Below are positions 34,573 to 62,432 of a stretch of 64,000 nt of DNA, piece by piece; the stretch's first letter is position 1; every line of letters starts with the position of its first letter. The stretch comes from Pseudoxanthomonas spadix (GTDB lineage Bacteria; Pseudomonadota; Gammaproteobacteria; Xanthomonadales; Xanthomonadaceae). The stretch spans positions 310,001-374,000 of the forward strand of contig NZ_RDQN01000001.1 in the NCBI RefSeq assembly GCF_003703395.1. The letters run 5' to 3'. The notes under the pieces are model-generated. The model was not told the DNA's origin and did no database searches. It saw only the letters and a program-made list of their open reading frames with translations. The position numbers and the translations under genes are program-made.

Positions 34573-35712
34573 ATGCTCACCCCAAACCGAGTCTTCACCG
34601 CGGTCTCATCGCCCACCGACCAGCAGCGCTGGCCCAACGGCGCGGGCAGTGAGTTGAACATCGTCATCGTCGACGATCAGGCGTCCGCGCGGACCATGCT
34701 GCGCCACGTGATCGAGGACATCGCCAGCGAACTGTCCGTGCACGACTTCGGCGATCCCCAGGTGGCCCTGAACTGGTGCAGCAGCAACCGCACCGACCTG
34801 CTGCTGCTCGATTACCGCATGCCGGGCATGGACGGGCTGGAGTTCGCCCGCCGCTTCCGCCGCCTGCCGATGCACCGCGACATCCCGGTGATCCTGATCA
34901 CCGTGGTTGGCGACGAGCCGATCCGCCAGGCCGCGCTGGAAGCGGGCATCATCGATTTCCTGGTCAAGCCGGTGCGCCCGCGCGAGCTGCGCGCCCGCTG
35001 CCGCAACCTGCTGCAGCTGCGCCAGCAGTCCGAGAACGTCAAGCAGCGCGCCCTGTCACTGGAGCAGCGCCTGCTGGCGAGCATGCACGAGGTCGAGGAG
35101 CGCGAGCGCGAGACGCTCTCGCGCCTGGCCCGCGCCATCGAATACCGCGACCGCGGCACCAGTGCCTTCCTCGAACGCATGTCGCGCGTGGCCGCGCTGG
35201 TCGCCGAGCAGCTGGGCATGGGCGAGGAAGACGTGCGCTCGATCGAACTGTCCGCACCACTGCACGACATGGGCAAGATCGCCATTCCCGATGCGGTGCT
35301 GATGAAGCCCGGACCGCTGGACGAGGACGAACTGGTGATCATGCGCCGCCATCCCAGGATCGGCCACGAACTGCTGATTGGCAGCCAGAACCGGCTGATC
35401 CAGGCCGGCGCCCTGATCGCATTGCGCCATCACGAGCGCTACGACGGCAGCGGTTACCCCGATGGCCTGCGCGGCGAGCAGATCCCGATCGAGGCCCGCA
35501 TCGTGGCGGTGGCCGACGTGTTCGACGCCCTGATCTCCGCGCGTCCCTACAAGCCGGCCTGGACCCGCGACGCGGCGCTGGCCTACCTGTACGCCCAGCG
35601 TGGCCGCCTGTTCGACCCGGCCTGCGTGGACGCGCTGTTCCGCGGTCGCGAGCGGCTGGACCAGATCTGCGAACGCTATTCCACCCTGCCGGTTCGGCCC
35701 GGAATGGAGTGA
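34573..35712 (+). CDS. rpfG: RpfG: response regulator with HD-GYP cyclic-di-GMP phosphodiesterase
   Basis: A 379-residue regulator with a receiver domain (about 28-150; phosphoacceptor Asp80 in LLLLDYRMPG) and an HD-GYP domain. The metal-binding HD pair is His231-Asp232 in LHDMGKIAIPD, and the GYP motif is 294-296 in HHERYDGSGYPDGL. When phosphorylated by RpfC it degrades cyclic-di-GMP, which in Xanthomonas frees Clp and switches on extracellular enzymes and biofilm dispersal. Its stop overlaps the rpfC start as TGATG. No rpfH lies between, unlike X. campestris. Confidence 0.96.
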   Translation: MLTPNRVFTAVSSPTDQQRWPNGAGSELNIVIVDDQASARTMLRHVIEDIASELSVHDFGDPQVALNWCSSNRTDLLLLDYRMPGMDGLEFARRFRRLPMHRDIPVILITVVGDEPIRQAALEAGIIDFLVKPVRPRELRARCRNLLQLRQQSENVKQRALSLEQRLLASMHEVEERERETLSRLARAIEYRDRGTSAFLERMSRVAALVAEQLGMGEEDVRSIELSAPLHDMGKIAIPDAVLMKPGPLDEDELVIMRRHPRIGHELLIGSQNRLIQAGALIALRHHERYDGSGYPDGLRGEQIPIEARIVAVADVFDALISARPYKPAWTRDAALAYLYAQRGRLFDPACVDALFRGRERLDQICERYSTLPVRPGME

Positions 35713-37940
35713 TGACCATGGCTGCACTGCTGACAACGCTGAAGCAACGGCTGGCCGTGCGCCGCGACAATGAGCAGGGTCAGGCCGCGGTGCGCATCGC
35801 ATTGATCAGCCTGATCCTGTTGTACGTGCTGCTGCCGCCGGTCCGCGCTGACTTGCCGGAAGGCCAGTACGCCAGGGCGCTGACCATCGTGCTGACTGGC
35901 CTGACCCTGGCCTGGGGGCTGTTGGCGTGGATGCTGGCCAGGCCCGGGCGTTCGGATGCGCGCCGCATCGTCGGCATGCTGGCCGACTATGGCCTGATGG
36001 CCGCCGGCATGATCCACATGGGCGAGCCGCTGAGCTGGGTCTACGTGGTGGTGATGTGGGTCACCGTGGGCAACGGCCTGCGCTACGGCAACAACTACCT
36101 CTACCTGGCGGTGGTCATGGCGATGTCAAGCTTCGCCACTACGGTGCTGTTGACCGACTACTGGCTGGCCAACCTGAAACTGGCCATCGGCCTGCTCGTG
36201 GGCCTGGCCGCGGTGCCACTGTATTTCTCCGGCTTGCTGCGCAAGCTGACCGGCGCCAGCGCCGAGGCGCGCCGGGCCAGTGAGGCCAAGAGCCGCTTCC
36301 TGGCCAACATGAGCCATGAATTCCGCACCCCGCTCAACGGCCTGTCCGGCATGACCGAGGTGCTGGCCACCACGCGCCTGGACGGCGAGCAGCGCGAGTG
36401 CCTCAACACCATCCAGGCATCGGCCCGCAGCCTGCTGGCGCTGGTGGAAGAGGTGCTGGACATCTCGGCCATCGAGGCTGGCAAGCTGCGCCTGGACGAA
36501 TCGGAATTCTCTCCGCGTGAGCTGGTTCAGCACGTGGGCTTCATCATGCTGCCGCAGGCCAAGGCCAAGGGTCTGGACTACGCGGTCAGTTTCGCCGACG
36601 ACGTGCCGCCGGTACTGCGCGGCGATGCCCGTCACCTGCGCCAGATCCTGATCAACCTGGTCGGCAATGCGGTCAAGTTCACCGAGCGCGGTGGCGTGCG
36701 CATCCAGGTGTCGCGGTTGGCCGCCAGCGATGCCGATCGCGGCCCGCGCCTGCGCTTTACGGTCATCGATACCGGCATCGGCATCCCGCTGCGCCTGCAG
36801 GGTCGCCTGTTCGAAGCCTTCGAACAGGCCGACGTCAGCATGAGTCGTCGCTACGGTGGCACCGGCCTGGGCACGGCGATCGCCAAGGGCCTGGCCGAAG
36901 CCATGGGCGGCACGATCGGGTTCGAGAGTGAAGTCGGCCTGGGCAGTACGTTCTGGGTGGAAATGCCGTTCCGCGCGGTCGATCCACACGCCGCGCCAGC
37001 GCCGATGGTGCCGGCCCTGGCGCTGGAGGAGCAGACCCAGGCCGAAGTCCAGCCTCAGCACCTCGGCACGGCCGAGAACGTCATCGCCTTCTCCGATCCG
37101 TTCCTGCGTCACCGCGCGCGCGTGCGCTGCATGCACATCCTGGTGGCCGACGATCACCAGGCCAACCGCATGGTGCTGCAGCGCTTGCTGCAGAAGGCCG
37201 GCCATCGCGTCAGTTGCGTCAACGGCGGCGAGGACGTGCTCGATGCCATGGCCATGTCCGACTACGACGCGGTGATCATCGACCTGCACATGCCTGGCAT
37301 GAGCGGCCTGGACCTGCTCAAGGAACTGCGGGTGATGCAGGCTGGCGGTGGGCCGATCACACCGGTGATGGTCCTCAGCGCCGACGTGACGCCCGAATCG
37401 ATCAGCCGCTGCGAGCAGGCTGGCGCCTACGCCTTCCTGGCCAAGCCGGTGGCCGCGTCCAAATTGCTGGATTACCTCGGCGAAATCGCCGTCAACGCCA
37501 GCCTGCGCACGCCGTCCAAGCTGACTCCGGTACGCGGGGCCGACGTCACGCAGGCCGGCCAGCAGCACCAGGTGCTGGACCCGCGCGTGCTGGACGAGCT
37601 GGCGCAGCTGGGGATGGGCGAGGCGTTCGAGCAGGAATTCATTCAGCAGTGCCTGGCCGATGCCGATGCCTGTTTCGCCGGGCTGACCCGCGCCGGCGAA
37701 CAGCACGAATGGGAGCGCGTGCGCGAACACGCACATGCCTTGAAAGGGGTGGCCGGTAATCTGGGCCTGACGCGGCTGGCCGAGGAGGGCGGCCAGTTCA
37801 TGCGCATGGCCGACTGGCAGGTCAAATCCGAATGGCGCCAGCGCATGCACCAATTGCACACGCACCTGGACATGGGCCGTGAAGCGCTGATCGCACGTGC
37901 ACAGCGACACAGGGCCCGCGACGGCGGAGCCGAGCGCTAG
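35712..37940 (+). CDS. rpfC: RpfC: hybrid sensor kinase for DSF
   Basis: A 742-residue hybrid kinase. An N-terminal five-helix membrane sensor (about 28-175) is followed by HisKA with the autophosphorylated His202 in [12 protein letters not shown], a HATPase domain (about 305-420 with GNAVKFTE and DTGIGIP), a receiver (Asp524 in [11 protein letters not shown]) and a C-terminal HPt domain (His675 in [11 protein letters not shown]). It senses DSF, phosphorylates RpfG and, in Xanthomonas, restrains RpfF by direct binding. Its stop codon TAG is formed by the CTAG end of the 168-bp repeat element that starts at 37937. Confidence 0.96.
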
Positions 37941-38104
37941 CAGTCTGTCGGACTTTGGTCGGCCGGGCTGCGAATCCGCCTGTGCGGTCCATCTTTCCGC
38001 CGCTTCTTGGCCCATAGCACCACTATGGGCCGGCGAACCGTCGAAAATCTGACCTCGCACAGCCGAATTCTCGCCTCGACCACCAAAGCCCGACAGGCTG
38101 CTAG
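37937..38104. mobile_element. 168-bp CTAG-bounded palindromic element, copy 1
   Basis: This is the first of three copies (others at 44406 and 62265). Terminal inverted repeats read CTAGCAGTCTGTCGG at the left and its near complement at the right, continuing inward through CTTTGG. The whole sequence is a long imperfect palindrome centred on a CCCATAG/CTATGGG hairpin. There is no open frame of its own. It separates the convergent rpfC and rpfF genes. This is the most diverged copy. The shape is that of a non-autonomous miniature inverted-repeat element. Confidence 0.85.
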
Positions 38105-44405: not shown

Positions 44406-44573
44406 CTAGGAGCCTGTCGGACTTTGGCCGGCCGGGCTGCAAATCCGGCTGTGCGGTCCATATTTCCGTCGCTTCTTGCCCCATAGAACCACTATGGGGC
44501 GGCGAATCGCCGAAAATCTGTCCTCGCGCAGCCGAATTTTCGCCTCGACCGCCAAAGCCCGACAGACTCCTTG
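44406..44573. mobile_element. 168-bp CTAG-bounded palindromic element, copy 2
   Basis: Same length and orientation as copy 1, and almost identical to the reverse complement of copy 3. The left end is CTAGGAGCCTGTCGG; the right end reads CCGACAGACTCCTTG, so the terminal CTAG is altered there to CTTG. It lies in the divergent gap between acnA and vapB, upstream of both genes. Confidence 0.85.
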
Positions 44574-62264: not shown

Positions 62265-62432
62265 CTAGGAGTCTGTCGGGCTTTGGCGGTCGAGGCGAAA
62301 ATTCGGCTGTGCGAGGACAGATTTTCGGCGATTCGCCGCCCCATAGTGGTTCTATGGGGCAAGAAGCGACGGAAATATGGACCGCACAGCCGGATTTGCA
62401 GCCCGGCCGGCCAAAGTCCGACAGGCTCCTAG
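62265..62432. mobile_element. 168-bp CTAG-bounded palindromic element, copy 3 (inverted)
   Basis: Opposite orientation to copies 1 and 2; its reverse complement matches copy 2 almost base for base. Both ends carry a full CTAG (62265-62268 and 62429-62432) with terminal inverted repeats CTAGGAG(T/C)CTGTCGG. The centre is a CCCCATAG/CTATGGGG hairpin. It lies 40 bases after crcB and 273 bases from the IS630 element. The interval 62433-62704 between them holds no gene I can support. Confidence 0.85.

Follow-up and report, generated by a model that had tools for sequence, protein, structure and literature searches.

The 64-kb window analysed here, a stretch of 64,000 nucleotides of the Pseudoxanthomonas spadix genome, contains three copies of a 168-bp hairpin-forming element. 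We conclude from sequence comparison, with a probability of about 0.8, that this element is a MITE that carries the terminal repeats and uses the target of ISAzo2-like insertion sequences (ISs) of the IS1182 family, and that it would be moved in trans. The sequences point to this through ends common to the element and the ISs, empty sites with a single CTAG at five of the nine testable copies, near-identical copies at numerous positions, and a long hairpin that shows compensatory changes across genera. In the proposed mechanism, the repeat of approximately 15 bp (SAGYCTGTCGGRCTT) would be bound in trans by a DDE transposase of the ISAzo2-like branch, and the element would be inserted at CTAG (more loosely, YTAR) with duplication of these four bases. 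The mover would be an IS1182 transposase whose gene was probably lost from this genome or may never have settled there, and the hairpin and near-constant length would be kept for the benefit of the element, either as a transposition substrate or for the protection of transcripts.

An earlier, sequence-only reading of the window had also regarded the element as a MITE, which is supported by the terminal repeats, 31 genomic copies, and empty insertion sites. Its view that a transposase other than that of the resident IS630 is needed is likewise supported, the resident IS630 being taken as that reading had described it.

Copies in the window and in the genome

Copy 1 (37937-38104, plus strand) belongs to a subfamily starting with CTAGC, is identical to the subfamily consensus, and measures 168 bp including a CTAG at each end. 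The two CTAG sequences, at 37937-37940 and 38101-38104, are presumed target duplications, and the TAG of the left one is the stop codon of an ORF (34776-37940) for a hybrid histidine kinase, in which HisKA, HATPase, receiver, and Hpt domains were identified, so that the element begins at the stop codon. A convergent crotonase-family gene, which scored 359 bits for RpfF, under the model cut-off of 550, ends 105 bp from copy 1; rpf-like genes suit the Xanthomonadaceae, the family named in the sequence-only reading. Copy 2 (44406-44573, plus strand, 168 bp) belongs to a second subfamily, starting with CTAGG. Its left end, CTAG followed by an IS1182-type terminal repeat (GAGCCTGTCGGACTT), lies at 44406-44424 on the plus strand, and its right-end terminal repeat, with CTTG in place of CTAG, at 44555-44573 on the minus strand. 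Copy 2 is located 66 bp upstream of acnA and precedes an AbrB/MazE-type gene. Copy 3 (62265-62432, minus strand, 168 bp) is also of the CTAGG subfamily and is bounded by CTAG at both ends; CTAG and the terminal repeat occupy 62265-62283 on the plus strand (GAGTCTGTCGGGCTT) and 62414-62432 on the minus strand.

The three copies, each of exactly 168 bp, were located where the sequence-only reading had placed them. Copies 2 and 3, which it had called nearly identical and opposite in orientation, indeed differ at only 2 of 168 positions, and five of the six ends carry CTAG, the sixth being CTTG. Copy 1 matches copies 2 and 3 at 149 and 151 of 168 positions, respectively. The suggestion that copy 1 is older was not upheld, since it is among six copies identical to the consensus of its 15-copy subfamily. 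An element of 168 bp has room for at most 55 codons, and it contains no transposase gene.

A search for further copies in the whole genome (3,374,414 bases in 26 contigs) yielded 31 full-length copies plus another truncated at a contig end, which favours mobility. The element thus combines the features of a MITE: it is short, lacks a transposase gene, has terminal inverted repeats, and is present in 31 copies. The copies are 168 bp long in 28 cases and 167, 169, and 194 bp in the others. Among the 28 of exactly 168 bp, 15 start with CTAGC and 13 with CTAGG; the mean numbers of pairwise differences within these subfamilies are 2.97 and 4.03, respectively, and these low values indicate that both spread recently. 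In the fold of copy 2, position 5 pairs with position 164; this pair is C-G in one subfamily and G-C in the other. One copy is mixed, combining a CTAGC end with a CTAGG end. Gene contexts assigned by a crude ORF caller, to which no weight is given here, place 16 copies between tandem genes, 9 between divergent genes, and 4 between convergent genes; for the other 2 of the 31, one side is unknown. Only 3 of 36 relatives of the same genus had a match to the element at E <= 0.001, and a comparison with 72,556 plasmid records gave no match.

Another element of the genome, 155 bp long, shares the ends of these copies but differs in its interior (L074, 2006-2160; contig C20, 77705-77859). Minimal palindromes of 37, 38, and 48 bp (L068, 3563-3599; L035, 2626-2663; L110, 2855-2902), with CTAG at both ends, consist of two terminal repeats with hardly any sequence between them and are possibly deletion products.

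Ends shared with IS1182-family insertion sequences

A search for ISs with matching terminal repeats identified members of the IS1182 family, whose transposases are of the DDE type. The ends of the element, CTAG followed by SAGYCTGTCGGRCTT, are the same as those at both ends of complete IS1182-family ISs of 1.5-1.65 kb, including ISAzo2. The CTAG-bounded ISs of this branch differ from the element in their length and in encoding a DDE transposase, whereas the element is approximately 168 bp long and appears to have the terminal repeat alone in common with them; a comparison by eye beyond the repeat revealed no shared interior. The earlier assignment to IS630/Tc1-mariner transposases is not supported, the matching ends being those of IS1182-family elements.

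The end pattern (at most 2 mismatches) was present in 16 of 247 genomes and 10 of 54 genera of the family sample, four of these 16 genomes having only one or two matches, and a longer pattern, required to match exactly, was found at 25 loci of named genomes. Two of these loci, one from a Laribacter MAG (L117, 1535 bp) and one from a Burkholderiaceae MAG (L129, 1619 bp), are complete ISs that carry the end on each side. The transposase genes of both are interrupted and have matches to DUF772, DDE_Tnp_1_6, and IS1182; with respect to the IS1182 cut-off of 270, one piece from L117 scored above it (281) and both pieces from L129 below it. Both ends were also present in L163 (ISAzo2), L164, L165, L166, and L168, and in L268, L270, L271, L272, L278, and L282, as well as in L269 with one substitution. 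The intact transposase of L168 scored 357 bits against the same cut-off of 270. Only one clear end was seen in L161, L162, L167, L275, L276, L280, L281, and L283, and no clear end was found in the more distant matches L273, L274, and L279.

No IS1182 transposase was detected in the P. spadix genome by a search with PF05598 and a transposase protein, PF13751 and PF01609 being left out. With at most 4 candidates scored per genome, 10 of the 369 class genomes sampled carried the transposase at E <= 1e-30. Four of these 10 also carried the element (2.4 expected, P 0.21), and 86 of the 90 element-bearing class genomes gave no transposase match at this threshold and number of candidates. Element and IS occur together, for example, in G115, G385, G569, and G599. 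At the family level, the overlap was larger (7 shared vs 1.5 expected, P 1.6e-4), a result that is partly circular because the end pattern also matches the ISs themselves. Since co-occurrence is weak, the link to IS1182 rests on the ends and the target.

Insertion target

To examine empty sites, the two flanks of a copy were joined and compared, for 16 of the 31 copies, with 38 genomes of the genus, among them that of P. spadix itself. The alignment covered 20 relative loci for nine copies, a set outside which window copies 1 and 3 lie. At 9 of the 20 loci, representing five of the nine copies (L014, L011, L037, L013, and L026), the element was absent and a single CTAG stood at the junction. 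A tenth empty locus, that of L011 in G009, had TTAG. The remaining 10 loci had no CTAG at the site, and four of the nine copies had no relative with CTAG: the empty site of copy 2 was CTGA or CTAA, that of L018 was CTGA, that of L007 was TTAC- or CTCA-like, and that of L010 (four loci) was CTCA-like in a gappy alignment. Insertion at CTAG, as proposed from the window alone, is thus supported by the five copies with single-CTAG sites; the expected coincidence of ends and CTAG held at 9 loci and failed at the 11 that had TTAG (1) or something else (10). CTAG is strongly depleted in this DNA: the window holds 12, five at element ends and seven outside elements, and 67.7 would be expected from dinucleotides.

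Another element with these ends, represented by seven fetched copies in G157, bears on the length of the duplication. The 56 bases after the first four agree among the copies, and the first four are CTAG in three copies, TTAG in two, and CTAA in two. A CTAA beside the terminal repeat does not fit the TA duplication previously suggested, in which the inner G would be fixed, and the presence of CTAG, TTAG, and CTAA around one element favours a 4-bp over a TA duplication. We therefore favour a four-base target with the consensus YTAR and a 4-bp duplication over the central TA. In L116, L129, and L285, one CTAG is common to adjoining elements. In G157, seven contig ends (L086-L092) break approximately 120 bp into an element with these ends.

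Distribution among bacteria

A covariance model built from the first of the two alignments described below was used to search the class sample, at most 7 matches being scored per genome. The element was found in 90 of 369 genomes (own genome included) and in 72 of 272 genera. Among the best matches, which were those listed, the whole model was covered and most lengths were 165-172 bp, with two at 185. In a sample of 299 genomes from the phylum, 52 matched, and the 46 outside the class belonged to only four families. All 30 class loci that were fetched, one of them from the P. spadix genome, had the terminal repeat at both ends with at most 4 substitutions, and 18 had CTAG on both sides.

An Rfam search of the 64-kb window detected only a tRNA, with no family reaching its gathering score for the element, and a search of four loci at E <= 1 gave three weak matches, none of which reached gathering. 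Of these, the match to MIR6440 lay inside an element (24.6 bits; gathering, 95 bits). A weak match to rsmX was found beside an element in G064 (L101, 2036-2140; 30.6 bits, with a gathering score of 56). A covariance model is now available for this common repeat, for which Rfam holds no family at gathering score.

Conservation of the hairpin

Copy 2 folds as RNA with -90.5 kcal/mol, compared with a mean of -54.3 for shuffled sequences (z -8.5); none of 200 shuffles was as good, and with DNA parameters z was -7.6. Its fold and that of copy 1 contain 66 and 67 pairs, respectively, with internal loops, and the tip of copy 2 lies at 44479-44500 on the plus strand, in the region CCCCATAG-N5-CTATGGGG. 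The element had been described as a fully palindromic hairpin; the long hairpin fold was confirmed, but only 94-96 of the 168 positions form an ungapped reverse complement.

For the first alignment, 24 elements with lengths of 166-169 bp were selected from 69 end pairs in fetched loci, some of these being chance pairs; 12 genomes are represented, and a single Sedimenticola MAG contributed five of the elements. Double-sided change occurred at 22 of 39 consensus pairs, and 149 cells were compensated (59 after shuffling, 16-33 for slid controls); further pair types, one of five measures, did not exceed the shuffled value (46 vs 45.7; 280 of 500). The second alignment comprised 39 sequences (29 class loci, two window copies, and 8 earlier elements) of 166-169 bp with a mean identity of 66% and a minimum of 47%. 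Its loci were picked by a model that contains the structure, a bias towards structure and length of which the first alignment is free, and compensatory double-sided change was seen at 36 of 53 hairpin pairs, with 365 compensated cells (118 after shuffling, 40-102 for slid controls) and with 84 further pair types against 75.5 (2 of 500). Three pyrimidine mismatches near the tip, T-C, C-T, and T-C, are conserved in 32, 31, and 32 of the 39 sequences, respectively, and a T-G pair is kept in 38. Judging from the aligned sequences, these compensatory changes and conserved mismatches suggest that the hairpin has been maintained while the sequence changed, which may serve either transposition or the host.

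It is possible, although doubtful, that the folded hairpin of approximately 168 bases acts as the mobile unit. Its paired arms, conserved internal loops, and tip would then be recognized, perhaps in single-stranded or cruciform DNA, by a host factor or an IS1182-type transposase. If so, this would explain why pairing and length have been preserved across classes in preference to sequence, and how the element can persist where no partner was detected.

Alternatively, the pairing could be unselected and the element an ordinary decaying MITE. Template-switch repair of imperfect palindromes is known and yields double-sided changes, and it would make the arms complementary. We consider this unlikely, since copying from arm to arm should remove mismatches, whereas the three pyrimidine mismatches and the T-G pair are kept in 31-38 of 39 sequences, and since lengths are constant at 166-169 in the aligned set, where choice by model score favours such lengths. 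Constraint is therefore preferred, without proof.

The constraint could also come from the host, if the element were a useful structure, such as an mRNA stabilizer, a terminator, or a protein-binding DNA hairpin, that spreads by its IS1182-type ends and is retained for its benefit. The excess of compensation (36 of 53 pairs; 365 vs 118 cells), the retained tip mismatches (32, 31, and 32 of 39) and T-G pair (38 of 39), and the position of copy 1 directly at the 3' end of a gene would agree with such a role, and YPAL elements reportedly raise mRNA levels. Host usefulness is quite unlikely, however, because the insertion sites are not common to the relatives examined, the copies arise in recent bursts, and there is no clear sign of a transcribed strand. 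In the strand comparison, G.T cells on the aligned strand did not outnumber A.C cells outside columns 31, 32, and 34 (33 vs 62; inside these columns, 61 vs 1), so that the columns do not agree on a transcribed strand, and no clear strand emerged from either alignment.

A MITE mobilized through IS1182-type ends remains the preferred reading. MITEs are generally thought to decay once away from their parent IS. Here, the paired structure is kept in 72 of 272 sampled class genera, mostly without a detected partner transposase, and the element offers a natural test of whether a hairpin is required for DDE transposition or is of use to the host.

Relation to known elements

IS1272, also of the IS1182 family and also linked to palindromes, is reported to replace target stem-loops without target duplication (PMC5678879); in contrast, a single CTAG was present here at 9 of 20 relative loci, and replacement of a palindrome was not seen where the junction could be aligned. 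YPAL/RU-2 of Yersinia (PMC2759123) resembles the element in being a MITE-like, intergenic hairpin of 167-168 bp but has other ends. One published YPAL/RU-2 sequence had no profile match to the element, and its best local score against the 39 aligned elements, 20, was matched or exceeded by 188 of 200 shuffles, which gives no sign of homology. By description, QMITE2 of Coxiella (PMC5896051), several copies of which measure 168-181 bp by their coordinates, is alike in size and hairpin and differs in its 7-9 bp flanking repeats. The YPAL/RU-2 lengths and those of several QMITE2 copies raise the possibility of a common size optimum near 168 bp for hairpin MITEs. ERIC/RU-1, again compared by description, is likewise a palindromic, intergenic MITE of several genera but is 127 bp long and makes TA duplications (PMC2759123). 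MITEs have also been described in Thiomargarita (PMC4853749).

Within the literature in PMC, a scope outside which ISfinder and most subscription journals lie, we found no description of the element and none joining IS1182, CTAG, and MITE; one form of the terminal-repeat sequence appeared in PMC text under unrelated titles only, and the other form was absent. We rate the element as a MITE family of unusual breadth and structural conservation; its kind is known, and an earlier description is conceivable. For the ISAzo2-like branch of IS1182, the analysis documents both the ends and CTAG as the target.

An IS630/Tc1-mariner MITE with TA duplication, which would suit the TA within CTAG, sites that alone cannot separate a 2-bp from a 4-bp duplication, is very improbable given that the ISs with matching ends are IS1182 elements and that CTAA adjoins the repeat in L090 and L092.

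It is just as improbable that the copies are REP/REPIN-like palindromes moved by RAYT (Y1) transposases. REP elements, similarly high-copy and palindromic, differ from the element in size (20-40 bp), in their GTAG or CGTC tag, and in their Y1 transposases (PMC3733652). The P. spadix genome has 7 Y1_Tnp matches, 6 of them above the cut-off; one Y1 gene lies approximately 1.2 kb from a solo end (contig C8) and another approximately 1.0 kb from a 37-bp CTAG palindrome (C21). However, no end motif (at most 3 substitutions, with a CTAG start or at most one substitution in it) was present in the vicinity of the Y1 genes of C25, C1, and C6, and insertion of the element leaves CTAG on both sides. We dropped this origin because the ends match IS1182 ISs; there is also no GTAG-type tag, and the nearest Y1 genes are at least approximately 1 kb away. 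On C8 (L069, 2172-3440), a RAYT-like Y1 gene is followed by tandem near-copies of its coding end.
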